Shown here piece by piece: positions 1-57,947 of a DNA stretch of 64,000 bases (position 1 is its first letter; every line of letters begins with the position of its first letter). The translations under genes were made by a program, and so were the position numbers. The notes under the pieces were generated by a model, which was given only the letters and a program-made list of their open reading frames with translations, was not told the origin of the DNA and searched no databases. The DNA is from Watersipora subatra. Its lineage: Eukaryota; Bryozoa; Gymnolaemata; Cheilostomatida; Watersiporidae. Where the stretch lies: positions 10,844,869-10,908,868 of the forward strand of contig NC_088711.1 of NCBI RefSeq assembly GCF_963576615.1. Reading direction: 5' to 3'.

Positions 1-1092
1 ACCTGTAGATAAGATTTAAAATGTGCTTAATACATTATTCAATCAGATTTTTGAAAAAGGTCTGTTAGCTGCAGGTTAGCCTGACTTGGAATGTAAGGAC
101 TCGGTAAAGATTAGGGCCTATATTATTCTTCACGAGCAAATGTTCTAGCTAATGATTTAACAACGACTTTGAACACTTTCACTTACATATGACACTTGTC
201 TTGATAACACCTACTGTAATCACTTAATACTTACCTTTATAATATCTATTGTAATCATTTAATACTTACCTACTTAATACTTAACTTTATCAAAAAAAAT
301 GTAAGCATAAGAGCAAAAGTGGTTCTCTTTTATAGCTATACATACTTTGAAAAACTATCAAATAGTTTTATTATTCTACACTACTTTACAGTGTTAGTTA
401 TAATATGCATTAGTTATGAGGCGTGTATGTTAGTAATGAAATTTTTATGAAAACTGTTTCAAACTTTTGAATATTGAATATAGTGTTTATCAGCACTCAT
501 AAGCTCCACTAGCTGTAATGTTAGAGCAGTATTAAAATATCACAGAGCTCTGCAGCTGAAGCTTTAAGATACTCACTATCTTGTTTGATGTACTAGATAA
601 TAAATGTTGAATGATGCCTTCACCAACGTCAGCTCTTTTTATACTTTTTAGACCTGCTTCCATCTCCGCTGCCATCTGACATCAGGAAGCCATACCTCTT
701 ACAATTTCCTTTTTTTGGCGATAACAATCCACACTTGTCTTATTTTAGGTTCAGCCAGTTGTCTGGCAATATATTTAATGCTTTAATGTTACTTCCATAA
801 AATTCTTTTGATTTAGAACTTTTGAGATATGCTTTGTCATTGGCTGCCTTATCTTTTTTGCAGCATCAGTTTGTTTGTTGCTGATAAAAATCACTCATTA
901 ACTAACCAGTCATGCAAGTAGCTTGATGCTTTATCTTGAGATTTGGTATTATGGGTAGAGGTTATCTCTCATATGACTGCTTTAGCATGACAGGCAAGGT
1001 GAGCTCTTGATACACCATTGCAAGTTAGAATAAGTTCACATATTCGTGTCATCTGGTATATCCCATATACTATGAAATTTTTAAAGAACAAG

Positions 1093-1144
1093 TAATAATG
1101 GATGCTCTCTTAACTACAGGAAGTCAAGAGAGCATCCATTATTA
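1093..1144. other. Perfect-arm hairpin conserved in both duplicated blocks
   Basis: Two 23-nt arms (1093-1115 and 1122-1144) around a 6-nt loop form an almost perfect inverted repeat centred on GGATGCTCTCTT / AAGAGAGCATCC. The block B counterpart is at 15235-15286. One arm position is C-G here and T-A there, a compensatory change. Function unknown; it could be a small palindromic element or a structured RNA. Confidence 0.7.
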
Positions 1145-3939
1145 AATTGCTTCTGTGCTCAGCAAAACACAGAGTTGGAGCCTCAATAAAGCGCTGTACT
1201 CTTGCATGGTAGATTTCTTCGGCAGTTCCTGCATCTAGAATTCACCTCAGATGTATTGGCTGGGACATTCCTACGATTCAGCAAATTTTGAGGTGAAGAA
1301 AGCTCTTGGTCAGTGCTAAGACCATCCAAGCAGCTTAATCAGTCCTGGTGGTCCCTTTCAAGGATGTGAAACAATCCAAGCTTTGTTAATTAGTACAGAA
1401 ACATGTCGTACTTTTAACTAACTCACAGGTGCTTATTAATTAAAGCAAAAACACTTTTTAAAAATCTTTAAACACTTCCACACAATGGGTAAATATTAAA
1501 CAGAAATTGAAATAATATTCTGAAGAAGGCAAGAAGTTGATAGACAGTGTTTCAAAGACTACTCTTAGTTCACTAGACATAGAGATCTTATCTCACTTAA
1601 CTTACTGCTTACTAAGGCTAATCAGCTGACAAAAGAAGTCTACGACTTAGTGTCAGTTTATGCTGCTCTTTACAAAGAGTCAGGTGAAAAATGTTTTAAA
1701 AACTAGCTAAACATCTTCACAAATCCATGGCTGCTCATAATCTTTTAATGTTTAGAAAATTACGTAAGAGATCAGAGTCTCACACTAGCAATGTACATGT
1801 ATAAACATGAATAACACAAAGATCGAAAACTTCGTTTTTCAAAAAGTTTGTAATTTACTGTGATTAATTTTTAATGACATATTTTAACTGGTTCTTTAAT
1901 TTAGAACACTGTTGTACTTGAGTAGCTTAGGAAGTTGTGTTCCTGCTGTAAAAAGCTGTTTTATTATGTTCTTCAGGACAAAGTTATCACATTACCACAG
2001 TTATGAGTTACGCAAAGCATAGCAAGGACTACCACTACAAATCTAAGTCTATCACATGTAAACCCCTTATGAGAAAGGTATCTAATATACACATAAATGT
2101 CTACAAAATGACTGACAGAGATCTAATACAATTGAAGTCTATAAATCATGAAAGAGAAAAATATCTATCATAATACATGTCTATGAATTAGTTGACTGAT
2201 AGATGTACGCATTAGCACATAAGTGTTCAATATGGCCGACACAGAGAAATATCTATAACAAACAGAGTTCTATAAAATAGCTGACAAATAATAATGTTGT
2301 GGAGAAATGCTGTAACTGTGGGATATAAAAATTTTTGTTCACCATATCATATGTAATCGACCCTGGATAATCATAGATTGGCTCATTGATCTGCGTAATT
2401 CTATGTCAATTTTGCTACTGATCCAGTCTATAACCTATCGACACCAAAATGGCGTATTTCATTATATGTATAGACTGTAGATAGACAGATATTTTAGTTG
2501 GCTTATCTTAATACAGTATACAATCAGCTGTAGCTGTATTACAGTCAACTGTAACTTGTACTAATTAGAGCTTGTTATTGTACTTGCTCAACATTTGGCA
2601 CCTTCGTACAGTAAACTTTGTTATACTAGACCATAAATCTGAGAAAAAACTTGTGCACTCATAAGCAATAGAAACAAAATCTAGTTTATTGCTTGCTTTG
2701 GCCAGCTGTAACTGAGGCTATTCCCATTGTTTGTAAAGTTGTTGTAAGCAGTTGTCAAGCAATTGGAGGTTCATTAGCCAAGCTGGATTACTAGCTTGGC
2801 ATGAACATTGATTGCTAAGTTAGTACACTGCTCAAGGGCAAGGCTATAGTTCAGCTAGCTGTAGCAGAAAATCTTGCCTTGTAGGTAGCGCAAGGATTGC
2901 GACAAGAACATAAAAGAAAGAGTCATCTGCTCTCGTCTATTTGGCTAAAATTGAGCAGACAACTCAAACTATTTACTTGAACTGTTTTCAAGAGGTTCAA
3001 GGCTGGTTTAGTGCATGAATAGGCTGAAGTGAAAAAAAGCTGTAGTCAATCTTGTGTAATTTCATTAAATCAAATTAACTCAAAGCCTGGCTGATAAGGA
3101 ATGTTTTGGTAATAATTTCTAGGTGTACCCATATCTAGTATGTTCTCTATTACAAATATAAGTCTATGAAATGGTTGATAGAGAGAGGGGTCAGCTGCAG
3201 ACACAATACTAACAAAGTCAGGTCAAATTTCACAAAAATCAATAATAGTTGACTTTCCAGAAATCCAGGTTAGTGCTTTTCTGTTATCAAAAGGATTTTG
3301 GATTAACAACGCCTTTGCTTCACTATTTACCATTCTTTGTAATAATTCAATCTAAAAGCTCCCTTTGTTTGCTACAAAAAAGCTTGATACTTGAAAAGTT
3401 AAGGAAACCCTTATAGTAAAAACAGAAATGGGAGACAGACAAACATAAAATGTTTGATTTAAAATATCATTTTAAATCCTCTTTGTTCGATCGTATGTAG
3501 ACCATCAGACTCACCCTCCAATCTATTCCATGACAAAGCACATCTGGCTTTATGCATAAAACATCACAATTTTATTTAAATGATTTTTAACAGTTCAATG
3601 ATTTTGTATTTACATGAATAAAAATCTATAAAATCAGGAAAGAGATATGAAAGAACCGGGTATAGAACATGACAGCTAATTTCTAACTGCTAGATTTCTA
3701 TTGAGAGCCACAGTGGACTCGCTCACAGCCAGCTCTTGTCTCTCAAGAACTCCGACCCATTATATGTCTTTTATGAACTGTCATTGACTTTTATAGACTT
3801 TTACATGTTTGGATGATGACAATAAACCATTGAGACTCTCATTCATTTCCTTACGGTTGATTACACTTAAATAATAAAATCAATCATATTATATTATATT
3901 GCTCTCATGTGTTTTGTTGAATATACAAAACAATGAACA

Positions 3940-5171: not shown

Positions 5172-5420
5172 ATGAAGGTCCTTGCACTCTTCTTGGCTCT
5201 CTGCCTCGCTCTTGCGGCCGGATATGGAGGTGGCGGCTATGGAGGTGGAGGGTACGGTAGGCGTGGTGGCTATGGTGGATATGGACGTAGATACAACAGG
5301 TATGGCGGTGGATACAGAAACAGATACAGGGGTGGATATGGTGGTGGATACGGCGGTGGATACGGCGGTGGATACGGCGGTGGATATGGCGGTGGATATG
5401 GTGGATATGGACGATACTAA
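5172..5420 (+). CDS. Secreted Gly/Tyr-rich repeat protein, 82 aa (block A copy)
   Basis: The chosen ATG (AAAATGAAGGTC) starts a clear signal peptide, MKVLALFLALCLALAA. An upstream in-frame start at 5121 lies inside an intron. The mature part is Gly, Tyr and Arg only with a little Asn: GGGGYGRR-type units, then a linker with YNRYGGGYRNRYRG, then five GYGG(G) repeats ending in GYGRY. No catalytic domain. The inferred mRNA has a non-coding exon (about 4900-4955), an intron 4956-5157 (acceptor TTTTACAG), the coding exon, a 113-bp intron 5433-5545 starting 12 nt after the stop, and AATAAA at 5693. Composition resembles glycine-rich cuticle, shell-matrix (shematrin-like) and YGGYG antimicrobial peptides, but such compositions converge easily. 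Role inferred: extracellular structural or defence protein. Nearest relative: 19720-19962. Confidence 0.85.
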   Translation: MKVLALFLALCLALAAGYGGGGYGGGGYGRRGGYGGYGRRYNRYGGGYRNRYRGGYGGGYGGGYGGGYGGGYGGGYGGYGRY

Positions 5421-5692
5421 AAACCTAAACAGGTGATAAGCTAAGTCTGTATTAAAATATGCATAATTTTTAGAAAGATTCAGTTTTTATGTGTACCATA
5501 TACTTGCATGATATGGGAAGTTTATAACTCTTCTATATATTTTAGCAACAGGAGAAAACATATCGTATTGACCTTGAGTAAAACGCTCAATTATGAAGAC
5601 TTGCATTTTCGATTTATATTTTTGTTTTATATTTTTGTTGGTAATAATATTTATGGGAATTAATATTACAATATACTTTTTTGTTATTGCAT

Positions 5693-5698
5693 AATAAA
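5693..5698 (+). terminator. Polyadenylation signal of the first Gly/Tyr-rich gene
   Basis: AATAAA follows the 3'-UTR exon (from 5546). The block B equivalent is at 20229-20234. Confidence 0.6.
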
Positions 5699-6214
5699 CT
5701 GGTTATTGAAACTAATCTGCTTTCTTTCATTGCACCATTATATAACATTGTATAATCCTTATAACGAAAATATTAAATTTGTGAAATATTGAAGTGTAGA
5801 AGGAATATGGTCTATTATTATTTTTATTATTATTACTATTGTTATTGTTGTTATAGCAAACACTTAGAAATGAAACATGCCACTCATCAAGGTATAAAGA
5901 GCTACTAAAACTATACAAATAACAAATTACCGAATGAGTAAATTTTGTGAAAATATCAGTCATTATTTTCAAAAAATAACTCTCACAAACACCAAAGACT
6001 CTAGATTCAAATACTCCATTATTAACCTGCACCAGTTATTATTTTATGTTCTGCTTTGAATAAATAAAAAATTTCATGCATTAAATATTTTTAGAAGAGA
6101 GGTTCAAAATTTATAAATGAAAAAAATATATACTGAAGTTGTCAAAGTAGTGTATTTATTGTTAGAGAATGCAATGATTTATTTATATCCGTTTATGCTA
6201 CTGTTTACACTCAA

Positions 6215-7535
6215 AACTTCACACCTTTCCCTACAGCAGAAGTAACCAGTCGAGTCTTTGACAACATAAGGCAGGTGTCTAGTGTAAACTGTTAAATGGT
6301 TTATTTATTGCTGGAGAATGCAATGACTTGAGACTGTTTTATTAGCTCACATTCAGAGCCTTGATTTTAGAAGTTTACTGTTTATGAAGACTTTGAAGTA
6401 GTGAGTGCACGCAGTCACTGACAGTCACAACTCTCATATTTGCCTGTTGTATATGTTTTTGGTATACATTTTACAGTCTTCAAACTAAAAATGAAGGTCC
6501 TTGCAGTCTTTTTGGCTTTCTGCCTCGCTCTTGTGGCCGGATACGGAGGTGGTGGCTGCGGAGGTGGTGGCTACAGCGATTGTGGCTACGGAGGTGGCGG
6601 CTACTGAGGTGGCGGCTATGGAGGTGGTGGTTATAGTGATCGTGGCAGATATGGTGGCTACAGCTGTAGAGGGTAAACGAGCTACGGACATAAGAGTGGA
6701 TACAGCAGGGGATACAGTCGTGGATATGGCGGTGGTGGATATGCTGGATATGGCGATGGATACGTTGGATATGGGGTGAGATATTGGTGGCGGCTACGGA
6801 GGTGGCGGCTACTGAGGTGGCGGCTATGGAGGTGGTGGTTATAGTGATCGTGGCAGATATGGTGGCTACAGCTGTAGAGGGTAAACGAGCTACGGACATA
6901 AGAGTGGATACAGCAGGGGATACAGTCGTGGATATGGCGGTGGTGGATATGCTGGATATGGCGATGGATACGTTGGATATGGGGTGAGATATTGGTGGCG
7001 GCTACGGAGGTGGCGGATACAGAGGTGGCGGCTATGGAGGTGGTGGTTATAGTGATCGTGGCAGATATGGCGGCTACAGCTGTAGAGGGTAAACGAGTTA
7101 CGGACATAAGAGTGGATACAGCAGGGGATACAGTCGTGGATATAGCGGTGGTGGATATGCTGGATATGGCGATGGATACGTTGGATATGGGGTGGTGGAT
7201 ATGGTGGATTGGATATAGGGGTGGTGGATATCATAGATATAAAGGCGGTGGATATGGTGAACGTGGTGGATATGAATGCTACTAAACACCTAAACAGGTA
7301 TCAAACTGTGTCTTTATTAGAGTTTACATACCTTCTATGAAAGTCTAGTGTTTAACACATGCTTTTATGATTTGGGAAACTTTTAACTTTTCTGTACATT
7401 TCAGGTACTTGAACAAGTACAGCCAATCACAACAAACTGAGAGCACATTGGAGATTATTGGTTGATTTTTTGTTTTATTCTTTGTTGTTTTGATTACAGT
7501 ATTATGATAATATTTGGCTATTGAAATAATAAAAC
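6215..7535 (+). pseudogene. Broken third copy of the Gly/Tyr-rich gene
   Basis: The first exon (to 6274), intron (6275-6476), signal peptide (ATG at 6491), stop-proximal intron (7298-7404) and AATAAA (7528) match the intact copies. The frame hits TGA at 6605-6607 after 38 codons, TAA at each GAGGGTAAACG (near 6670, 6878, 7086), and shifts at each 208-bp repeat junction because 208 is not a multiple of three. Homology to the intact genes begins just upstream of the transcription start, so their TATATAAA box is absent. A piece of intron-1-like sequence lies at about 6150-6185, suggesting an untidy tandem duplication. Introns are retained, so it is not a processed copy. A 38-residue secreted peptide could still be made, but pseudogene is the better call. 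Confidence 0.8.
6580..7205 (+). repeat. 208-bp tandem array inside the broken gene
   Basis: Three successive units: the same landmark falls at 6605, 6813 and 7021, exactly 208 bp apart. Units 1 and 2 have TGA at that position and unit 3 has AGA. All share the TAA in GGGTAAACG, so at least that stop predates the amplification, or was homogenised. Confidence 0.85.
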
Positions 7536-9813: not shown

Positions 9814-11073
9814 TTCATATATTTCTCAAAGTTTGTGTATATGTGTGTGTCTGTGTATGTATAGCTATAGCTATTAAAATCTTGGGATTAAAACTTTACA
9901 TTCCAATAAATTTGAACTCTTGGAGATTGCAACCACAGGTGTGGAATCCACACCCTCTACTAATGAGCTATACAAGGCGCATTGATCAATGGCACTATCA
10001 TATACGGTATAGCCTACACACACGCTAAATGATGTATTATTTGAGCATTGCGTATACACGCTTTCATGACCCTGTCATAAAATATTTTTGCTTAAATCGA
10101 GGAAATACGATGCTTTTTCGATATTTTTTCACTGTCGCGAATTTTTTCTGCCGAACGATATCAACAATATTTTCTCCCGAAATTAATATTTGGAGATTTG
10201 TGAACTGATTATATACATTATTAAGAGATCTACGTCGCTCGCTATGGCGAATTCAGCGCTATCTGTTATGGTGAAAAGGGATTTGCAAACGAATAAATGA
10301 TAAAATTTTAGTCGAAAGTTTGAAGTTTACTAAAATACATACTAAAACTTCCTTAAGTATGTGTTTAATAAGCTAAATTCGTTTAGGTTTGATTCAGGGT
10401 TTATGTTTTATGTTACACGTCTGTCTGGAAGGTAAAAATTCTTTACGTAGTACATCGTAATGTTATATTATCTTGCAGCTCATAACCACAAAATGCACTA
10501 AAGGCATTGTAGGTACCTATAGTTACTAAGGTTAACATATAGTTTTGTTACTATTTTTAATGACGATGATTTTTAGTGTGAATGCATTAGATAATTACTA
10601 TGGGTTTCTATATCACTCTATGTACGTCTATAGCCTACGATATTTTCGCATGTCAACATTGGCATGCGAAAATTGGCATGCCAACTTTTGCATGCCAACA
10701 CTGAAACAAACTAAAATCATATAATTGTATACCAAATAATCTTTCATTGTAATTGTAGCAAAACAACTTATATTTAGCCATTCCTTTTAATGATTTCACA
10801 TTTACATTTAAACACCTTTACATTTTTATTTTTTCTCTTAATTTATTTCAACGAAATACTTCTTTCAAGGTAAAAAATTTAAAACCTACAGTTGTTTGAA
10901 AACCTTTAGAGTTGTTTTATTTTTTCTCAATTCATTTGAACTGCACAAAAATACTTTTCTCATAATATGAAGATTAAAAGTTAGAATGGTAAATGTTGTA
11001 TACGTTAAATAAAAACAAATTTTCTGTCTAAAGACTTTTTTATTACCCGGGCAATGCCGGGTAGTACAGCTAG
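9814..11073 (+). mobile_element. Helitron-like non-autonomous element E1
   Basis: The left end is ATATATTTCTCAAAG followed by a GT-rich run and GCTATAGCTATTAAAATCTTGG. The right end has a hairpin ACCCGG-GCAATG-CCGGGT, then seven bases and a terminal CTAG followed by T. Related termini recur at 33.5, 34.5, 35.9-36.3 and 57.5 kb. A 3' hairpin about 11 nt before a terminal CTRR, with T as the next host base, is the hallmark of Helitrons. The 5' end is less clear because of TA-rich flanks. No Rep/helicase ORF, so non-autonomous. Confidence 0.6.
9905..9980 (-). repeat. tRNA-like module inside element E1
   Basis: On the - strand, GCCTTGTATAGCTCATTAG with TAGAG resembles a tRNA 5' half with an A box, and GAGTTCAAATT resembles a B box, about 76 nt overall. 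The same module is in E3 (35351-35424). It is degenerate, so a tRNA-derived SINE-type promoter rather than a working tRNA gene. Confidence 0.55.
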
Positions 11074-11351
11074 TATATATATGTGATTTTACGTTATAAA
11101 AACAGTAAAATAAACGTAAACTAACTAATTTGTTCCAAGATCTTTATAAAACTCATTCTTTTGGCCATACAAAAAAGAGCTTGACTTAACTTTTTTAATT
11201 TGTGGGCTTTATCGTAACTTTAGTATTATTGGTTTGCATCGACAACTTTTTTCCTCTTTCTGATTTATCTCATTGGTTTTATAGACCATGATTGCAGTAA
11301 TTTTACAATAAGTTGATGGGGGTGCACATATTTGACTAATATTTGTATATA

Positions 11352-11426
11352 CGATATATATATATATCGTATATATATCGTATATATATATATGATATAT
11401 ATATATCGTATATATATATATATAAA
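11352..11426. repeat. TATATCGTATA-type AT microsatellite
   Basis: Alternating TA with CGTATA interruptions, next to the Penelope-like remnant. Confidence 0.8.
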
Positions 11427-11453
11427 TTTGGTAAGAAATTTATTAAAATTTGA

Positions 11454-11524
11454 CTAAGCAAAAAATTACTAAAAGTTTCATATTACACAAAAGGTGTGTA
11501 ACACTCATCAGATAAAATGCTTAG
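11454..11524 (-). ncRNA. Hammerhead ribozyme (type I), Penelope-associated
   Basis: On the - strand the complete conserved core is present: CTGATGA, then a 10-bp stem II (two G-U pairs) capped by CCTTT, then GAAA, a two-pair stem III closed by TTT, and the cleavage triplet GTA (predicted cut between 11467 and 11466). Helix I is formed by CTAAGCA (11524-11518) with TGCTTAG (11460-11454), plus an inner T-rich internal loop and two pairs next to the core, as in type I ribozymes that need loop contacts. It lies 83 bp downstream of a Penelope-like endonuclease frame on the same strand. Penelope-like retroelements are known to carry short-helix-III hammerheads in their terminal repeats. Confidence 0.85.
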
Positions 11525-11606
11525 TGAGGACCATACACAAGATTCTGCATTAGCTGGTAAGCTGAAATAAAAGCTCAGGTATTAAAAGCTAGATGGATAA
11601 GATCTA

Positions 11607-12060
11607 TTATGTAATGCTATTTCGTAAAAGGTGTTTCTTAGCATGTCTACATGTAGATATTAGTTCACTACGTTTGTTAAGAGTTGCCTTCTCAGGTCTG
11701 TAAATGATGAAATATTTTTCTAATGTACATAATCTGCAATTTCCGCTGCTTTTAGAGTATGGCTTGGCGTGTGATAAAATCTTCCAGGCTATGTTGTAGT
11801 CAGTGCCGCTTTCTTTGAGTTCCCATATGTGGCTGCTTAGCTCGGTAGAGTAGCGTTTAGAAATGTCCTTGAATGTGGATTTGTGAAGGTTATATCTAGT
11901 TTTGAAGCTGTTTTCGGTTAGCCCTATATATGTGGCTGCAGGTTTATTGTTATCGGTGGTTGTTAAGCTTGCCTGGTATATCACTGAGTTTGCTAGGCAA
12001 TTGTCTGGTATATATACAGTCTTATAACGTATACTATCAATAAAGTAAATTCCACAAAAC
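11607..12060 (-). pseudogene. Penelope-like retroelement remnant, GIY-YIG endonuclease end
   Basis: The - strand frame is open from about 12060 to a stop at 11607-11609. It contains YIGLTENSFKTRY, STELSSHIWELKESG, IAWKIL, CRLCTLEKY and LNKRSELISTCRH, the signature blocks of the C-terminal GIY-YIG endonuclease of Penelope-like elements. The reverse transcriptase is missing, so the element is 5'-truncated. The frame between 11984 and about 12060 has no ATG but continues in register (PDNCLANSVIYQ). The ribozyme follows at 11454-11524. The host sequence beyond both ends is AT-rich. Confidence 0.85.
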
Positions 12061-12670
12061 GTAAAAATTTGATAGAAAGTTTTTGCTTTGTCCTACATGA
12101 AAAATTCTATATAACGTAGTATCAAATCAGGGCAAGTTCTCAAATTTGATTTAATACAGATTTAGATACAGATAGGCGACGGAGAAGTGCGCACAGCTCT
12201 TGTTATAGTAAAACAATATTGTTGTGTTACTTTATTGTATGTGTATAAATATTTGTTATTAGTTTTCATTTACAGTATAGACTTCGCTGTCTACAAAAAT
12301 TAAACAAATTATATATTATACTTCATATTAAACATTATACTATAATTCACTCTCCACAAAGTGTCTTGAGTGCTTTTTCTTTATTATTCTTTACGAAACT
12401 AGCATTTTTAGCAATAATGTATAATTTTTTATATATATGTATACATATAGTAACATTGGAACATCAAATATGAACAATAACATCTGCAAGTCAAGTGTGG
12501 GTTTGCCTAAATAGAAGTCAGCAGTAGACAAGCTCGCTATTGAGAATGTCTAAGATATTCAGGTTAATGTTCAAAGTACTTTTAGTAAACACATAATTAG
12601 TTTTTATGAAATGATGATCTCTTGTCTCATATTGACTAACTGTATTTCTCACCTATCAATAGTAAATATT

Positions 12671-13240: not shown

Positions 13241-13507
13241 TTAGTACTGCCCATATGCATTCCTGGAGCCTCTATTGTACCAATCATATCCATCCCTGTA
13301 GTCGCTCCTGTATCCATCTCTGTTCCTAAGATATCCTCCATTTCTGCTTCTGTACCCACTGTATCTGCCCTGCGCATCATATCCATCATGGCTGTCGTAT
13401 ACATTACTTCTATAGCCCGGATTATAGTTGAAGTTGCGATAGCTTCCTGAATAGCCAGCGGCAGCAAGAGCAAGGCAGACAGCCAGGATGCATGCAATGA
13501 CCTTCAT
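13241..13507 (-). CDS. Secreted Tyr/Arg/Gly-rich protein, 88 aa
   Basis: The ATG at 13507 opens MKVIACILAVCLALAAAG, a signal peptide closely like those of the Gly/Tyr-rich genes on the other strand. The mature part is rich in Tyr, Arg, Gly, Asn, Asp and Ser (GYRSRNGGYLRNRDGYRSDY near the middle, ending NAYGQY) rather than pure GGY repeats. The in-frame codons upstream to 13597 are probably intronic: CTTACAG (acceptor at 13522-13523) lies 14 nt before the ATG. Twelve nt after the stop there is a donor CAG|GTAATAAA (intron 13130-13228, acceptor TATTTTAG), the same stop-proximal intron as in the relatives. I infer a diverged, inverted member of the same family. Role inferred as extracellular matrix or defence; no known domain seen. 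Confidence 0.8.
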   Translation of the reverse strand: MKVIACILAVCLALAAAGYSGSYRNFNYNPGYRSNVYDSHDGYDAQGRYSGYRSRNGGYLRNRDGYRSDYRDGYDWYNRGSRNAYGQY

Positions 13508-14215
13508 TCTCCAACTGAAATCTGTAAGCCCACAGGCTGAAGGATATATTTTTACTGAAAGTAGTACATAATATATTTCTTTAACACATAATATCACTGA
13601 ATGTAATTTTTATTAAAAATATAGTTTTTAGACATGAATTTATTTTGTAAAATATAAAAATCACACTCTAAATAATTTTAACACAGCACTGTATTATAGT
13701 AGCTGGCACATGTTTTAATAAAATATCACATATCAAAATATGAACTACAAACAATATTTTACGCTTTTTTAATGCATTAATTAAAAATCAGAACAGTTTT
13801 ATGAGTATACATGTATCTATGGTAAGTTTATAAAAGTATATTACCTAGAGATGACATCATTCTATGAGAGACATTAAACAAGTAGATTTTTGTTAGTTAC
13901 AAAGTTGCCTCGGGATGGTAGCTATTTTAAAACCAAAAATGTACATGTAGACTTTAAGCTCTGAAGTCAAGCTCAGTTTGATATGACAGACCATCAGATC
14001 ATATCTTGAATAAACCCACCAAACAGAGTAAATCATCTGTAGATAATATGTAAAATGTGCTAAATACATTATTCTATCAGGTTTTTGAAAAAGGTCTGTT
14101 AGCTGCAGGTTAGCCTGACTTGGAATGTAAGGACTCGGTAAAGATTATATTATTCTTCACGAGCAAATGTTCTAGCTAATGATTTAACAACAACCTTAAA
14201 CACTTTCACTTACAT

Positions 14216-14412
14216 ATGACACTTATCTTGATAACACCTACTGTAATCACTTAATACTTACCTTTATAATATCTACTGTAATCACTTAATACTTACCTTG
14301 ATAACACCTACTGTAATCACTTAATACTTACCTTCATGACACCTACGGTAATCACTTAATACTTACCTTGATAACACCTACTGTAATCACTTAATACTTA
14401 TCTACTTAATAC
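14216..14412. repeat. 36-bp minisatellite
   Basis: About five copies of a unit containing ACACCTACTGTAATCACTTA and ATACTTACC. Block A has about two copies at 205-290. Confidence 0.8.
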
Positions 14413-19719: not shown

Positions 19720-19962
19720 ATGAAGGTCCTTGCATTTATCTTGGTTCTCTGCCTCGCTCTTGCTACCATGGGTTATGCTAGCCGCTACTATGGAGGTGGA
19801 GGGTACGGTAGGCGTGGAGGCTATGGACGTAGATACAACAGGTATGGTGGTGGATACAGAAACAGATACAGAGGTGGACGTGGTGGTGGATACGGCGGTG
19901 GATACGGCGGTGGATACGGCGGTGGATACGGCGGTGGATATGGTGGATATGGACGATACTAA
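19720..19962 (+). CDS. Secreted Gly/Tyr-rich repeat protein, 80 aa (block B copy)
   Basis: The signal peptide MKVLAFILVLCLALATMGYA probably ends before SRYYGG. The mature part has GGGGYGRRGGYGRRYNRYGG, then GYRNRYRGGR, then four GGGY-type repeats and the same GYGGYGRY end as the block A gene. Flanking introns are 19505-19705 (5' UTR, acceptor TTTTACAG) and 19975-20087 (12 nt after the stop); AATAAA is at 20229. Most differences from the block A protein are in the signal peptide and early mature region; the C-terminal repeats are nearly identical in codons, suggesting recent duplication or gene conversion. Role as for the block A gene, inferred. Confidence 0.85.
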   Translation: MKVLAFILVLCLALATMGYASRYYGGGGYGRRGGYGRRYNRYGGGYRNRYRGGRGGGYGGGYGGGYGGGYGGGYGGYGRY

Positions 19963-30501: not shown

Positions 30502-31963
30502 CTAGTGAACTCCATTGGTTTTGCGCGGCCCTGGTGCCGGTTTTACTGGAACTGGGTTAATTTTCACTGGTGCAGGGAGTTGTCTTGTTTGTGCAGAGAG
30601 TTGTCTTACTGGTGCTGGGAGTTGTCTTACTGGCATAGGGAGTTGTCCTCTCGGGGCTGTGGAAGGAAGCTGTCTTGTTTGTGCAGGCAGTTGTCTTACT
30701 GTTGCTGGCGCAGTCCTGATTGGTGTGTTTGCTTGTGGCATAAACTGCTGCTGATATCTGCTGACTTTGACGTCATACGCAGCTCTATGGGCTCTCCTGT
30801 AGTTGTCTATAGCTTGATGTGCTCCAGGGTCATTTCTGATTGCAGACAGAAGGAGTGCATCTGGTATCTCAGGCGCTTCATAGGCATCTGGTCGTTCAAG
30901 TATCTCAAATGGGTCAGGTTGTTCTATGAAGTTGTATAGAGGAACTTGAGCTCTATGGGACAAGACTCTTTGGGTTGGAACTGGAACAGCAGTGACTGTG
31001 TTTGGTGCAGAGCGAACTGGAGTCTGTACTGGTGCTGCCTGTACTGGTGCTGCTTGTACTGGTGCTGCCTGTACTGGTGCTGCTTGCACTGGTACTGCCT
31101 GCACTGGTACCATCTGAACTGGTACTCTGGCAGAAGCGACTGATGGTATTGGGGCAGCACCAACTCGCCTTTGTGCAGTGTTGCTGAACTGCTGTTGATA
31201 TCTGCTGACTTTAGCATCATAGGCAGCTCTATGGGCTATCCTGTAGTTGTCTATAGCTTGGTGTGCTCCAGGATCATTTCTGATTGCAGACAGAAGGAGT
31301 GCATCCGGTATTTCAGGTGCTTCATATGCATCTGGTCTCTCAATCATCTCAAATGGGTCTGGTTGTTCTGTAGCAATAAAATGATAGCTTGTCAAAGTTG
31401 AAAATTGGTCGAAACTATAGAACACTCTCAAAAAAAGCTGTGAATGTTTTCAAACACAAAAATCATGGTTCAGATTTTAGGGACTTGAGAAAAAACTCAC
31501 CTATGAACCAGGTTGGATCTATTCTACAAATAAAAAAGAACATGTTTACTCAGAATGAGAATATAAAAACAAGGATGAAAACCATATTTGTAGAGCTTTT
31601 ATAACAAGAGAGCAAACACATTTACTTTCTGTTGATCTGCGCCACATGCTCTACTGTTATTCCACACTTAAAGTTTATTCTTATCATTATGCTGGTGTGA
31701 TAATTATTTTTAACCACCATTAATCAATTTTGAATCAAAACTGTTATAATAATACTACTGTTATAGTTTTGCCTTTCCACATTCTAAATCAAAGTTGAAA
31801 GCTTTTGTCATGAATACGAATATAATACCGAATTCTTGCAAAATTAAAAGTGCTACTAATTAAATGTATAAAATAAATACCTTGGAGCAGCCCTGTTTGC
31901 TGCCCACTGTCCATGTGACAGTCCAGACAAAGCAGCTATCAGCAGTACATTGGTTATCTGCAT
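30502..31963 (-). CDS. Secreted two-domain PDPFE-repeat protein, 323 aa
   Basis: Exons in gene order: 31963-31881 (ATG, signal peptide MQITNVLLIAALSGLSHGQ), 31523-31501 (a 23-nt microexon encoding IDPTWFI), 31367-30502. The 972 nt sum to 324 codons and every junction has GT..AG (AAG|GTATTT, TTTGTAG|, ATAG|GTGAGT, TGCTACAG|). Residues 36-96 and 184-244 are two near-identical domains beginning EQPDPFE and containing RPDAYEAPEIPDALLLSA and DPGAHQAIDNYR.AHRAAYD. They are separated by a linker of VPVQA/APVQA pentads and followed by a Pro/Arg/Gln tail of RQLPA-type repeats. No Cys in the mature part. I do not recognise the domain. A non-coding exon (ending 32531) and TATA box lie upstream, and the first 3'-UTR intron starts 22 nt after the stop. 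Its paralogue is at 41478-42710. Confidence 0.85.
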
Positions 31964-33532: not shown

Positions 33533-34535
33533 CTAATGAATGCCCGGCTTTGCCCGAGTAATAAAAAAGTCTTTGGACAGAAAGTTTATTTTTATTTTAC
33601 ATATACAGCATTTACCAATCTAACTTTTAACCTTCATATCATGAGAAAAACGTTTTTGCGCAGTTCAATTGAATTAAAAAAAATATAAACCATGAGTTTA
33701 TGGTAGTGTGTATGAAAAAGGTTATTGTTACAGCAGAAGCTCGTTGTATTCAAAGTTTTAATGGACGATACTCGTACAAACGTATAAGTGAGATATTGGA
33801 GTGTGTTTGTCTGGTATTTTGTCTGATCAAACGGAAAGAGAATGTAGAGGCTACTCCTACTCAAGATACAATTGTCCACATGAAAAGTATTTAACCTATA
33901 CAGATTTAGCGATCGAACCTTTGAAAAAATTTGAAATAGGAGTATAACGACACATTTGAAACTGAAACGACACATTAGCAAATTACAATTAAAAAAATAG
34001 GTAATGGTAAAAAATATTAGCTTTTAAAAAATTTCATAAAAATAACAAGCGCAAAAGGTATAAATAATACCTTTTGCGTATACCTTGAACCTTCGCATTA
34101 CACTTTTAATTTGTTCCAGTGTTGGCACCGTAAAGTGAAAATGTTGTATACAAACTGGTATAGAAACTCATCGTAATCATTTAATGCAAACACCCCCTGA
34201 TAAAAATCATCAAAATTTTATATACACTGTATCTTCTGTTTTTATTACTGATGCAATACCAGGTGTGCAGCATGAGGCCAGATGGTAATTGTTACGTCAG
34301 ATGCAACGCCATTATGCGCATTTTAACCGGTAGTGAATACCTTCACTATTACCATATTAAACACTATACTCTGTTGAACACGTAGTCTAATGGTTAAGCT
34401 CGACAGCTCCAGAACTGTAGGCTCCAAGATCAAATTCTTTGTGAAATGGGTCTTTCGTTCCTAAAACTTTACCGCCACGCCTGGACAGAAAAATGACAAA
34501 CGACAAACTGACAAATGCTGAGATTTATATATACA
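33533..34535 (-). mobile_element. Helitron-like element E2 (diverged)
   Basis: In reverse orientation the 3' end has a decayed CCCGG/CCGGG hairpin and ends TTAG before T. AATAAAAAAGTCTTTGGACA follows inside. The other end contains GGACAGAAAAATGACAAACG. A tRNA-like stretch is near 34374-34450, and a segment near 34097-34237 recurs at 63.11-63.26 kb. Confidence 0.45.
34374..34450 (+). repeat. tRNA-like module in E2
   Basis: GTAGTCTAATGGTTAAG resembles an A box and AGATCAAATTC a B box, about 50 nt apart. It differs from the E1/E3 module, as if derived from another tRNA. Confidence 0.5.
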
Positions 34536-34537
34536 TA

Positions 34538-35525
34538 CTAGCTGTACTACCTGGTGTTGCCCGGGTAATAAAAAATTCTTTGTACAGAAATTTTATTTGT
34601 ATTTAACATATAACAACATTTGCCATTCTAACTTTCAAACTTCACAACATGAGAAAGTGTTTTGTGTAGTCGAAATAAATTAAGATAGAAAATAAAAACA
34701 ACTGTAAAGGTTTTCAAACTTTGTCAAACAACTATAACTTTAAAACTTCATATCGTGAGAAAAATGTTTTGTGCAGGTCAAATAAATTTTAAAAAATAAA
34801 ATAACTATAAAAGTGTTTAAATGTAAGTGTGAAATAATTAGCAAGTAATCGCTAAATTAAGTCTGTTTTGATACGATTACAATAAAACATGATTTGGTAA
34901 TGAAACAATTAATACAAACTGAAAAAAAAAAACTAAAATCCTGAATATGTTGAATTAATAATAACAATTCTTGCATAGAATTGTGTATGTATAAAAAAGG
35001 TTACTGTTCCACCGGAAGTTATCTATCAAAACTCTGAATACGGCGATACTGGTACAGATGTGAAAATGAGATATCGTACGGTCTCTGTCTGACCGATTGG
35101 AGAGAGAATCTAGAGGCTCTTCCTACGGAGATAATACAAATGCCCGCGTGAAAATAATTTGCCTCGACCGCAGATATAGCAATTGAACCTTACAAAAAAC
35201 TGAAAACAGAAGTTCAATAAAACAGGAAAAAAGCATCGTGCTTCATAGAATAGAATTCATAGAGTTAATAGAATTCATCGAGCCTCAAATAATATGTCAT
35301 TTAGCATGTGCATACGCTATTTGGTATATGATAATGTCTTGGATCAATACGCCTTGTATAGCTCAGTTATGTAGAATAGATTTAAAACTTTCAGTTGCAA
35401 TCTTCGTGAGTTAAAATCCATCGGAATACGGAATTTCAATTCCAAGATTTTAATAGCTATAGCTGGACAGACACAGACACAGACACACAGACACACAAAC
35501 TTTGAGAAATACATATATAGACAAG
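34538..35525 (-). mobile_element. Helitron-like element E3
   Basis: Starts (reverse 3' end) with CTAGCTGTACTACCTGG and GTTGCCCGGGTAATAAAAAA; ends with AAACTTTGAGAAATACATAT and AGACAAG. It holds GACACAGACACACAGACAC and a tRNA-like module at 35351-35424. Same termini as E1, E4 and E5. Confidence 0.6.
35351..35424 (+). repeat. tRNA-like module in E3
   Basis: GCCTTGTATAGCTCAGTTAT and GTGAGTTAAAATCC match the E1 module at 9905-9980 in the same relative place and orientation. Confidence 0.55.
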
Positions 35526-35897: not shown

Positions 35898-36340
35898 GTA
35901 TATATATTTCTCAAAGTATGTCATCATATATCTGTCAGTTTTCCGGCTATAGATCTTAAAATCTTGGAATAAATATTCCGTAACGAAGAAAATTCGATCT
36001 CCGACCCTGCCGTTTTCCAGTCTGACACCTTGCCCACTAGACTACAAAAATCTAAGTGCTAGCTTGCAAATATAAGTCAATTACATGAGAGCAAATAGCT
36101 AACTGCTTTGCGTATGACGCGGGTCATAGCATAAAGCCACGAGAAGCTGTTTGCTCACATTATTAAACTGGCTAATAGCAAAAACTCTCACTGCTTCTCA
36201 TTGTTTATAAGACAAAAAACTTTTTCCATGATATGTAGTTTGAAAGTTGGAATGGCAAATGTTGTTATATGTTAAATACAAATCAATTTTTTGTCCGAAG
36301 ACTTTTCTATTACACGGGCAACGCCGGGTGGCACAGCTAG
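35898..36340 (+). mobile_element. Helitron-like element E4
   Basis: Left end TATATATTTCTCAAAGTATG; right end hairpin CGGGCAACGCCGGGTGGCACAG then CTAG followed by T. A tRNA-like stretch on the - strand at about 36058-35988 contains TAGTCTAGTGGGCAAGGTG and GAGATCGAATTTTC, a third isotype-like module. Confidence 0.55.
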
Positions 36341-36555
36341 TATATATATAGTATATGTGGTTTACATTGTAAAGTAAAGTGCTCAATAATCGAGTCAATT
36401 AGAGCTGTGTATGAAGTTTATTAAAAACTACAGGTTAAAATCATTACTACTATTAGTTTCATGCAATCGCGTTGCAATCTTCAGGTAGAATGACTAAAAT
36501 GTATAACATACAAGCTATAAAATTACTTTATAAAGCTGAGGGCTCAATACTATTA

Positions 36556-36768: not shown

Positions 36769-37170
36769 CTACCAGAGACCTGGGAGTTTGAGCACTCGCC
36801 TCAAGATCTTAGCTGTTCCCAATAGCGCACTTTTCTGCAACTCACCTGAGTTGATTGTTGTTGGTATTTGGGCAAGCCACATTTTATGCGCCGGTGTTAT
36901 TGCGCCCAGTGCCCCAATGACTACTGGGATTACAGTTGTTCTTACATTCCAGCATTTTTCAATTTCTTCTCCAAGAGGGAGATATTTCTCTACCTTTTCT
37001 TTTTCTTTGCTGGCTATATTGTAGTCATTGGGTACTGCTATATCTATTATAGTAGCTCTCTTGTTCTCCTTGTCTACCACCACTATATCTGGTTGGTTTG
37101 CTAGGACATGCTTGTCAGTTTGGATGTAGAAGTCCCAGAGGATCTTAGCGCGGTCATTTTCATTGACCAT
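36769..37170 (-). pseudogene. LINE restriction-like endonuclease domain (separate frame)
   Basis: The first residues are VNENDRAKILWDFYIQTDKH. Then QPDIVVVD and ATIIDIAVP give the PD...D pattern of the PD-(D/E)XK-type nuclease found at the C end of R2/R4-like LINEs, followed by a Lys/Glu-rich helix (KEKEKVEKY). It overlaps the end of the reverse-transcriptase frame in a different frame; the protein continuity around 37165-37172 indicates a one-base indel in this copy. Confidence 0.8.
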
Positions 37171-39627
37171 TTATTAAGGCCATACTCATCACATAGACTT
37201 CTATACACAACACCTGCGACATGATTATGTCGCTTAGTGTATGCGTTCCCTGCTAGCTTCTTGCATCCACTGATGATGTGTTGGATGGTCTCAAGTGCAT
37301 CTTTGCACAGTCTGCATCTAGGATCGTCTCTAGTGTGATAGATTTTCGTTTGGAGTTGCCTTGTTGGGAGCACTTGCTCCTGGGCTGCCATGATTAGTGA
37401 CTCTGTATTGGCCGTTAGGTTTCCTTTGTTCAGCCACATATATGTCTGGTGAAGATCGCCAACCTTAGATATTTGTTGGTGGTAAGCACCATGAAAAGGT
37501 TTCGTGTGCCAGTCAATTTCCTCATCATCAGGGCGTAGGTCCGTTGTAAGAGCAGCCGATTGAAATTCACCTAGCAACTTATCTGAGATGGCCATGGAGG
37601 CTGCATATGCTTTGATGCTTTGCTCCTCCTCTTTCACTGTCTGCTGTACACTTTTGAGTCCCCTACCGCCATCTTTCCTATCAAGATACAATCTAGTAGT
37701 ATCAGATTTTGGGTGAAGTGCTCCATGCATGTTCAGCAGTTTACGAGTTGCTATATCTGTTTCTTTGATGGCTTCCTCAGTCCACTTTATTATGCCTGCT
37801 GGATATCTTATTACTGGCAGTGCATAGGTATTTATTGCCATGACTTGATTCTTGGCATTGAGCTGGCTCCGTAAGACCTGCCGGAGGCGTTTCTTGTATT
37901 CAGTAATGGCTTTGTGACGGACCTCGGCTTCGTGGTTGATGTTGCTTTGCATAATCCCCAAGTACTTGTACCCTTCTTCTATATCTTCGATGGTACCATT
38001 TGGCATTCTTAGGCCATCTGTGAGCATAGAATGGCCTTTCTTAAGAATTAGCCTTCCACATTTCTCAATACCGAAGGTCATTCCAATGTCCTTGCTGTAT
38101 GCCTGAGTGAGGTGTATTAGCAAATCAATGTCCCTTTCTTTGTTAGCGTACAGCTTGATGTCATCCATGTAGAAGAGGTGGTTTACCTTGGTGCCACTCT
38201 TAAACTGGTACCCATATTGAGTCTCCTCCAGCATATTACTTAGAGGGTTTAGGCATATGCAGAAGAGCAGCGGTGATAAGGAGTCACCTTGATAGATGCC
38301 TCGCTTAATTTTTACACTCGCCAGCTTTTTGCCGTTAACCTCCAGTTCCGTCTTCCATTTGGTCATTGACATCTTGATGAATGCCACAAGAGCAGGATGA
38401 ACATTGTACATACTGAGGCACTCAAGTATCCAACTATGGGGAATTGAGTCATAGGCCTTTTTGTAGTCAATCCAAGCCATGGCAAGATTGGTTTGCCTTC
38501 TCCTGCTGTCTTGACAGACCGTCCGATCCACCAGTAACTGATGTTTAGTTCCTCGGGTGTTGCGCCCAATTCCTTTCTGAGCACTGGTCATATAGTGACT
38601 CATGTGCTCTTCTAGTTTGTCTGCAACTATTCCTGAGAGCAGTTTCCAGGTGGTGGGCAAGCACGTTATTGGTCGATAGTTTTTGGGAATCGGCCCCTGC
38701 TTTGGATCTTTTATCAGAAGTACAGTTCGTCCTTTGGTCAGCCATTCTGGATGGTCACCTTGTTCTATTAGGCATTCCATCTGCTTAGCCATTCTAGTGT
38801 GAAGTGATGTCAATTTCTTTAACCAGAAGGCTTGAATCATGTCATGGCCAGGTGCTGCCCAGTTCTTCATACGCTGCACTCTGCACTTGATGTCCTCTTT
38901 GCTGATGGTGAGTCCTTGCTGAGCCACAGTGTGTTGATGGCTCTCTTTAAGCCTCTTCAGCCAATTTGCAGTGGTGTTATGAGTAGTCTCTTTCTCCCAG
39001 ATGTCCTTCCAGAACTTTTAAGTGCTAGATCGGGGAGGCTCAGACATTGGCCTCTGCAGTTCACCTTTGAACTGGAAATACATTCTAGATGGATTATTGA
39101 TGAACAGTTTGTTCACTCTCTTGTTATCTCGCTCTTTGGTGTACCGCTTCAGTCGTGCCGAGAGTGCTACTAGCTTCTGTTTGGCAGATTCTAGAGGTTC
39201 TATTGTGGCTTCCCTTTTTGGACGCTCCAAACTGTGGTTAGATCTCTCACTGAGCCTACTAACTTTCTTGCGCAAGTCCTTGATCTTATTTTGTAGCCTC
39301 AGCTGCCAGGATGGAATGGCTTGAAGCCTTGTTGGCAGTGGCTTAATATCCATCTCCTCCAAGATGACGGTTGCTGTACTGTAGATTAAGGCATTAGTCT
39401 CACTGATTGATCCAGTTGAGATCGACTCCAGTGCCAAGTTAATGTCTTCTAACAGCTTCTTAAGTATGGCCTTGCTAACTCTTCGTAGTGGTACCCTGCT
39501 TCCATAATCATTAGCAGCTGACATCTTGTTCATGATATTTTCCGCAAGCTCTCTCACCCTTGGGTCAAGGTCCAAGTGCATGTCTTCTTCAACCCGTGAG
39601 TCAACACATGATCGTGTATGCGTGACA

Positions 39628-41477: not shown

Positions 41478-42710
41478 TTAGTAACGTCTCACAGATGTTT
41501 GAGGCACTGGTGCTGGGTAACGTCTAGCAGGTGTAGGTTGTTTCTTTGGTGCAAGTTGTCTCCTTGGTGCAAGTTGTTGTCTTGCAGGTGAGGATCTGGT
41601 TTGAGTGTTTGCTTGAGGTTGAAACTGCTGGTGGTAACTGTTGACTTTAGCGTCATAGGCAGCTCTGTGTGCTCTCCTGTAGTTGTCTATGGCCTGGTGT
41701 GCTCCAGGGTCATTTCTGACAGCAGACAAAAGAAGTGCATCTGGTATTTCAGGTGCTTCATATGCATCTGGCCTTTCAGGAGCCTCAAATGGGTCAGGTT
41801 GTTCTATGAAGCTGTGCAGAGGAACTTGAGCTCTGTGAGACGAGGCTCGTGCTGGAACTGGTCTTGCTCTAGCTGATGCAGAAGCAGTGTGGCCTGGAGA
41901 AACAGGAGCAGAACCAATTCTACCTTGGCTCGGTCTGCTAATATGCTGTCGATAGTTGTTCACTTCCTCATCATAGGCAGCTCTGTGTGCTCTCCTGTAG
42001 TTGTCTACTGCCTGATGTGCTCCAGGCTCATTCCTGACAGCAGAAAGAAGAAGTGCATCTGGTATTTCAGGCGCTTCATAAACATCTGGTCTTTCAGGAG
42101 CCTCATATGGGTCTGGTTGCTCTGTAAGATAATAACGACGTTAACCAAATCGAGAAACAGAATCTTGCAATGTAAGTTCAAGTTTTCTTGTGTACATGTT
42201 ATCAATATAACATTGAATAACTTACCAATAAACCAGGATGGATTTACCCTGCAAATATAAAAGACAATCATTTATTCTTAATATTATAAGCAACTCAAAT
42301 ATTTATGAAGATAAACTCCAAGTTTAAATTGAACCCATCAAGTAATGAATACACATGTGATACAACAACTGAAGTTAAAAAACAACAGATCACCATAATT
42401 GCACAAATAATCATAAAAATTTATTGTTAATTGTAACTAATGACTTATAGTTTGTAACACTAATTCTATATTCATGTTACTCAACATTTTTACCTTATAC
42501 ATAACTCATAGGGCAGCATACCAACACTAGTTGCATGATGATTTATGGTCTAAATCTTTATGATACCAGAAATACTGTTATAATTATCATTCATTAGGCT
42601 GACTCTTGGAATATAATTTACCTTGGAGCAGAATTGCTTCTGTGCTGCTGTGCTAAAGATAGCGTGAACAAGGCTGCCAAAAGTAGGAATTTGAATATTT
42701 GTATCGGCAT
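41478..42710 (-). CDS. Secreted two-domain PDPYE/PDPFE-repeat protein, 251 aa (paralogue)
   Basis: Exons in gene order: 42710-42622 (ATG, signal peptide MPIQIFKFLLLAALFTLSLA), 42248-42226 (23-nt microexon encoding VNPSWFI), 42121-41478. The 756 nt give 252 codons, with donors CCAAG|GTAAAT and ATTG|GTAAGT and acceptors TTTGCAG and TTACAG. Two domains start EQPDPYEAPERP and EQPDPFEAPERP; each continues with YEAPEIPDALLLSAVRN and GAHQA.DNYRRAHRAAYD. The linker is short and Ser/Ala/Arg-rich instead of the PVQ pentads, and the tail is basic (RRQLAPKKQPTPARRYPAP). A stop-proximal intron starts 28 nt after the TAA. Clear paralogue of the 30502-31963 gene, same strand, about 11 kb upstream. Function unknown. 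Confidence 0.85.
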
Positions 42711-57266: not shown

Positions 57267-57544
57267 AGTGAGTGAACCATGTGTTGCAGTGTGTTGCTGT
57301 CAGTTAAGAAGTGAAACGCTACCTGTAAGTATTTACTCTAGATAAAAGACTTCATTCAAAGAATCAGAGTCTTTCCCTGCTAAGGGAAGAAAAAGCTTTG
57401 ATTGGAAATGCATCTACTAGTAGTATAATGGTTATTGTCATCATTTATATAGAGTGATGTGATTATGAATTGGTTAGCAACGTTGCCTAGAGGTCCTGTT
57501 GTTAAGTTCATCTCTCCTTGATGCAGGGTCTATTATATATTGAA

Positions 57545-57947
57545 CTAGCTGTGCTACCCGGCGTTGCCCGGGTAATAAAAATGTCTTTGGACAGAAAATT
57601 GATTTGTATTTAACATATAACAACATTTCTCATTCTAACTTACAAACTACATATCATGAGAGAAGTGTTTTGTGTAGTTGAAATAAATTAAGAGAAAAAT
57701 AAAAACAACTGTAAAGGTTTTAAAACTTTGTCAAGCAACTGTAACTTTCAAGCTGTTGGCCAGGCACGTTGCCAATGGAAAATTCTACTAAGCTAGTTAG
57801 TAAGCTTGTAATGCCGGTAGGCAATTACATTGTGTCAGCATTGTTGCCCAGCTACGCTATTCTAATAATTGCTATAGCCGGACAATCAAACCTAGAATAC
57901 ACATACGGACATACTTTGAGAAATATATATATATATATATAGACAAG
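57545..57947 (-). mobile_element. Helitron-like element E5
   Basis: In reverse orientation: 3' hairpin ACCCGG-GCAACG-CCGGGT then AGCACAG and CTAG before T; 5' end ATATTTCTCAAAGTATG preceded by CTTGTCTATATA. About 400 bp, with no ORF. It lies in the inferred first intron of the Cys-rich gene. Confidence 0.6.

Follow-up and report, generated by a model that had tools for sequence, protein, structure and literature searches.

A hammerhead motif on the minus strand

The window, by which we mean the whole 64-kb stretch of DNA analysed here, carries on its minus strand a short motif (11453-11525) that lies downstream of an open reading frame on the same strand. Direct reading, together with a descriptor, defines this element as a minimal type I hammerhead ribozyme motif running from one arm of the distal stem I to the other. 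Every conserved base of the hammerhead core is found in order: CTGATGA (11505-11511), GAAA (11476-11479) and a GTA triplet (11469-11467; GUA in the transcript), after which cleavage is predicted to fall between 11467 and 11466, the triplet and cut together occupying 11466-11469. Three helices can be drawn around this core and stem I forms the open end, which is the type I topology. An earlier note had claimed this anatomy, the topology and the order of the core elements on the minus strand, as well as the GTA triplet and the position of the cut, and direct reading bears it out on each of these points. The motif is thus confirmed as a real hammerhead motif, with a complete type I skeleton at this place.

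The helices that surround the core are of unequal length. Stem II (11480-11504) comprises ten pairs (11504-11495 with 11489-11480) and a five-nucleotide loop; all ten pairs are standard, G.U pairs occupying positions one and three counted from the core, and these two could be accounted for by C-to-T changes that followed insertion. Helix III (11468-11476) consists of A-U, C-G and U-A pairs around a UUU loop, takes in the final A of GAAA, and is near-palindromic (ACU-UUU-AGU). The earlier note had given this helix two pairs; the helix is present, and has three when the core-adjacent A-U pair is counted. In stem I, an eight-nucleotide 5' arm (11518-11525) pairs with a 3' arm (11453-11460) to form a distal helix, seen both in the fold and by direct reading, and an internal loop and two proximal pairs lie between this distal arm and the core; the distal helix had likewise been described correctly, except that it holds eight pairs and not seven. 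The motif had also been called structurally intact, a description that applies to the core letters, all of which are kept, but not to the structure as a whole: stem II has a G.U pair where it meets the core, the predicted probability of helix III is only ~0.003, and the Rfam score falls below threshold.

The motif adjoins a truncated Penelope-like endonuclease

The open frame upstream of the motif spans 11607-12092 on the minus strand. Between it and the first paired base of the motif (11525) lie 81 bases, and the hammerhead core begins 95 nt after the endonuclease stop codon. That an endonuclease on the same strand adjoins the motif had been noted before and holds; the spacing of 83 given with it is the coordinate difference 11607-11524 and not the number of intervening bases.

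A homolog of this frame was found on a contig (JAAEPJ010000379.1, hereafter L003) that is titled a bacterial MAG and was the one match to a codon pattern among prokaryote genome contigs; a protein pattern gave 50 pattern matches in the same kind of contig, with no relative among them. Viral contigs yielded 7 and 56 matches to endonuclease patterns, again with no relative, and none to the codon pattern, while tblastn returned four phage records (best E 5) and no plasmid. L003 is probably animal DNA contaminating a bacterial MAG bin. Over 91-3659 it contains two inverted Penelope-like copies, with 93% and 95% complementarity in their two longest arm pairs. Its upstream frame bears a YRDD motif, from which we take it to be a reverse transcriptase (Pfam gives this frame no match), and is followed by a C-terminal endonuclease.

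In a single comparison, the window endonuclease and the endonuclease part of L003 share 47% identity over 132 residues (E 9e-38), which supports the earlier description of the neighboring frame as Penelope-like. Columns that are invariant across three aligned rows, two of which are the L003 copies, comprise NCL, YIGLTE, FK-x-R, HK, STELS, IWELK, EK, LNKRSE and CRH. The names GIY-YIG and Penelope are our assignment from characteristic motifs, for Penelope together with the single homologous contig and the literature, and find no match in the profile libraries: Pfam gave none for the frame 11607-12092 and NCBIfam none for 11610-12023, PHROGs returned only weak matches (E 0.05 and 0.31), and a comparison of the endonuclease with solved structures found nothing significant (best E 0.028, a chain named T32-15-1). 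A structure model built from the three-row alignment has a poor mean pLDDT of 50; its elements follow the order E-E-H-H-E-H-H, as expected of a GIY-YIG core.

Homology to L003 extends over 12011-11610, and the RT-like frame of L003 finds nothing significant in the window by tblastn (best E 0.55, at 49 kb). We therefore conclude that this copy is truncated near 12011 and retains its C-terminus and stop codon, as the earlier note had held in calling the element truncated. The frame accordingly divides into a C-terminal endonuclease remnant with its stop codon (11607-12011) and an upstream part that lacks L003 homology (12012-12092). The remnant lacks the telomerase-like reverse transcriptase that would precede the endonuclease within the ORF, a lack that describes this truncated copy rather than its source family. 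Searches of the window by tblastn with the window endonuclease and the L003 frames revealed no other significant Penelope pieces, and no pseudo-LTR repeats were seen at this truncated single copy.

L003 also bears a hammerhead core (CTGACGA-stem II-GAAAC, 3762-3787), which lies at the end of the contig and is cut off before helix III and the cleavage site. In both loci a hammerhead core comes after the homologous endonuclease, and its spacing from the stop codon is similar (95 nt in the window, 124 nt in L003). They differ in stem II, which in L003 has four pairs, a GUAA loop and G-C as its core-adjacent pair, and in that L003 retains an upstream RT-like frame. The hammerhead stretch of L003 folds no better than shuffled sequences (z -0.05).

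Just 3' of the window element lies a TA-rich low-complexity tract (11346-11424, from repeat analysis), possibly an AT-rich target site. This location is compatible with a preference for AT-rich targets that one report describes for a Penelope-like protein (PMC11167929). Since both flanks are TA-rich, no target-site duplication was called.

Covariance models do not match the motif, and the Rfam threshold is insensitive

At the Rfam gathering threshold, no family, hammerhead included, matches the window, and at E <= 10 the interval 11350-11650 gives 23 weak matches of which none is to a hammerhead. On the covariance-model check put forward in the earlier note, then, the motif region scores below the Rfam threshold and has no hammerhead match. 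Nine viral loci (L004-L012), picked by a hammerhead-core pattern and read as hammerheads by eye, served as controls; in one of them, L010, a GTA was likewise seen by eye where the triplet is expected. Two other matches to the hammerhead pattern in viral contigs (L001 and L002) showed no matching stems by eye and were taken as chance. Because none of the nine controls reached the gathering threshold for the hammerhead family, we regard this threshold as insensitive and give it little weight as a refuter. For the sole control run in E-value mode, the score to Hammerhead_3 was 23.5 bits, vs a threshold of 48.5, and the window motif does worse than this control. Rfam at curated thresholds thus missed the window motif along with every control, and annotations that rely on thresholds alone may therefore undercount such ribozymes.

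We also built a covariance model, R1, from the six viral loci first read as type I, leaving out L004, L005 and L010. Applied to the left-out loci, R1 scores L005 at 49.3 bits, with the type I model fitted over the whole length, so that this locus had been misread when it was excluded, L010 at 30.3 and L004 at 26.9; the L003 core, truncated by the contig end, is matched weakly (11.3 bits, E 0.3). Run with filters off and E <= 10, R1 reports nine other weak matches (best 11.7 bits), and the window motif is absent from these. The GC-rich training set of R1, with its 5-bp stem II, may explain the poor fit of a 10-bp, AT-rich stem II.

The motif as part of a probable Penelope-like relic

We interpret the locus, with high confidence, as the 3' end of a Penelope-like retroelement that is truncated on its 5' side and carries a minimal type I hammerhead, an isolated relic whose ribozyme is most likely a leftover; the genome is that of an animal, probably a bivalve mollusc. 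The remnant would consist of the last ~130 codons of a GIY-YIG endonuclease, a short 3' UTR or pseudo-LTR, and the hammerhead. In an intact tandem element, the ribozyme would be expected to cut a long transcript between units at its GUA site, and cleavage would probably be most efficient in a dimer, with helix III common to two copies, or in the presence of the element's own protein. In an isolated, truncated copy such as this one, the ribozyme would most likely be a leftover, silent or weak by itself.

Minimal type I hammerheads of Penelope-like elements were reportedly treated by Cervera and De la Pena in 2014 and by Lunse et al. in 2017. Two sources describe such minimal type I hammerheads as conserved in Penelope-like elements, some of them mapped to pseudo-LTRs, and so uphold the earlier statement that these ribozymes are established in this group; the same sources hold that they may cleave as dimers, with their role unsettled (PMC7761336, PMC6155905). 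A palindromic helix III that permits dimers is noted for Aedes and others in a further report (PMC3088659). The window motif resembles the minimal Penelope-like hammerheads in being of type I, in its invariant core, in its very weak helix III, and in its position beside an endonuclease frame on the same strand; it may be unlike them in its GUA site and in its AT-rich stem II of 10 bp, in which two pairs are G.U, and it is a single motif in a truncated element.

The Poseidon element PAc of Anolis offers a second comparison (PMC11167929). Like the window element it is Penelope-like and combines a GIY-YIG endonuclease with a hammerhead, the latter at its pLTR. There, cleavage depended on addition of the element's protein, and hammerhead mutants left insertion in vitro unaffected (PMC11167929). 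The PAc hammerhead also begins in the pLTR and extends into the first part of the ORF that follows, whereas no frame of at least 80 codons starts at the window ribozyme.

Among molluscs, the giant squid genome is reported to hold 235 'hammerhead 1' motifs (PMC6962438), and for a mussel the count of type I copies is about 5000 (PMC7229834). Within the parts of the literature at hand, nothing was found on GUA cleavage sites in Penelope-type hammerheads, nor, for Penelope-like hammerheads in oysters, on the present element. The association of hammerheads with Penelope-like elements is already in print, and the window copy is one more copy of a known sort; its value is that of a further sequence variant among the minimal hammerheads of Penelope-like elements, of small import beyond annotation.

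Folding of the window copy and its possible activity

The identity just proposed is compatible with a ribozyme that is still catalytically active and that cuts at GUA either alone or when paired with transcripts of other copies, a state of the window copy that we consider conceivable but rather unlikely. All core letters are kept, and GUA satisfies the NUH rule (PMC2238771). Across four transcript contexts of 79-371 nt, the distal stem I is predicted to form with a probability of 0.97-0.98 and stem II with one of 0.92, which favors an active copy. Against activity, helix III reaches only the ~0.003 mentioned above in these same contexts (the proximal stem I ~0.07), and a competing pairing occupies the core: in the minimum-energy fold, of the hammerhead helices only stem II and the distal stem I survive and the core is mispaired, CUGA with UUAG, such that the monomer hammerhead fold, at -14.4 kcal/mol, lies 5.1 above the minimum of -19.5. 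The segment 11448-11526 folds with a z of -3.46 relative to 200 shuffles, but this value belongs to the minimum-energy fold with its mispaired core. The core-adjacent stem II pair is moreover G.U where L003 has G-C, and the window holds one copy alone. Energy models leave the non-canonical pairs of the core unscored, and the low fold probabilities are therefore grounds for caution rather than disproof.

Dimerization improves the energetics of the hammerhead fold. A dimeric hammerhead is predicted at -34.3 kcal/mol, vs -28.8 for two monomers (2 x -14.4), which again speaks for an active copy; the unconstrained minimum of the dimer, at -42.1, is lower still than the dimeric hammerhead. A more specific proposal, which we hold to be very improbable, is that this Penelope-derived hammerhead, with its long stem II, U-rich stem I internal loop and GUA site, has kept its cleavage activity, perhaps solely in dimers formed by transcripts from separate genomic copies, and thereby processes read-through RNAs from a region of shell-matrix-like genes.

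Alternative origins

Two further readings would detach the motif from the Penelope-like relic that we favor, and we consider both highly improbable. In the first, the motif would be a type I hammerhead repeat of the retrozyme kind, non-autonomous and circular-RNA-forming, and would not belong to a Penelope-like element. According to one study, type I hammerheads abound in the genomes of mussels and other metazoans, where they sit in tandem repeats of 150-450 bp (PMC7229834), and the window motif shares with these metazoan retrozymes its type I form and its setting in low-GC animal DNA. It differs from them, however, in lacking such a short tandem repeat and in having an endonuclease frame next to it. 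The arrays over 11346-11424 are AT-rich with periods of up to 26, and none of retrozyme size lies at the motif; the only array in the window with such a period (208 bp x 2.9, 6584-7194) is without a hammerhead by descriptor; and the motif stands, on the same strand, just past the stop codon of a Penelope-like endonuclease. With hammerhead tandem repeats of 150-450 bp absent at the motif and an endonuclease frame adjoining it, we rejected this reading.

The second reading is chance resemblance, an AT-rich stem-loop with an accidental CTGATGA and GAAA. The failure of both Rfam and R1 to match the motif, and a minimum-energy fold that is not a hammerhead, would fit such an accident. When both strands of the window are scanned with the descriptor, however, this motif is the sole match, and the descriptor, a loose one, gives 40 matches in 1500 simulated first-order Markov windows of equal length (0.027 per window; an earlier run of 60 simulated windows had given one match, or 0.017 per window). 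Among these 40, stem II has at least 8 bp in two and the distal helix at least 7 bp in nine, and none combines the two, so that the full anatomy occurs in none of the 1500 windows. From the 0.027 rate we calculate a probability of ~3e-5 that a match would fall by chance, on one strand, in the 150 nt that follow a given frame. These rates, and the agreement of position and strand with the literature and with L003, led us to reject a chance origin.

Other features of the window

The window contains several repeats and repetitive frames besides the Penelope-like remnant. A second, unrelated retroelement at 37104-39017 (minus strand) is marked by a reverse transcriptase frame that matches Pfam RVT_1 (E 4e-29) and, weakly, zf-RVT. 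A dispersed repeat occupies 10730-11082, with pieces of 77-87% identity at 34529-34899, 57534-57726, 33543-33692 and 36212-36349. Two related repetitive frames on the minus strand (30502-31449 and 41478-42140) share YEAPEIPDALLLSA..RN.PGAHQA.DNYR and have no Pfam match at E <= 0.01. Glycine/tyrosine-rich frames and repeats are found at 5219-7256, 13241-13609 (minus strand) and 19865-19940; we take the frames to be shematrin-like, which would suggest a pearl-oyster shell-matrix gene cluster and, for the host, a pearl-oyster-like bivalve. One 35-nt tandem repeat unit is present at two places 14 kb apart, 200-279 and 14221-14400.
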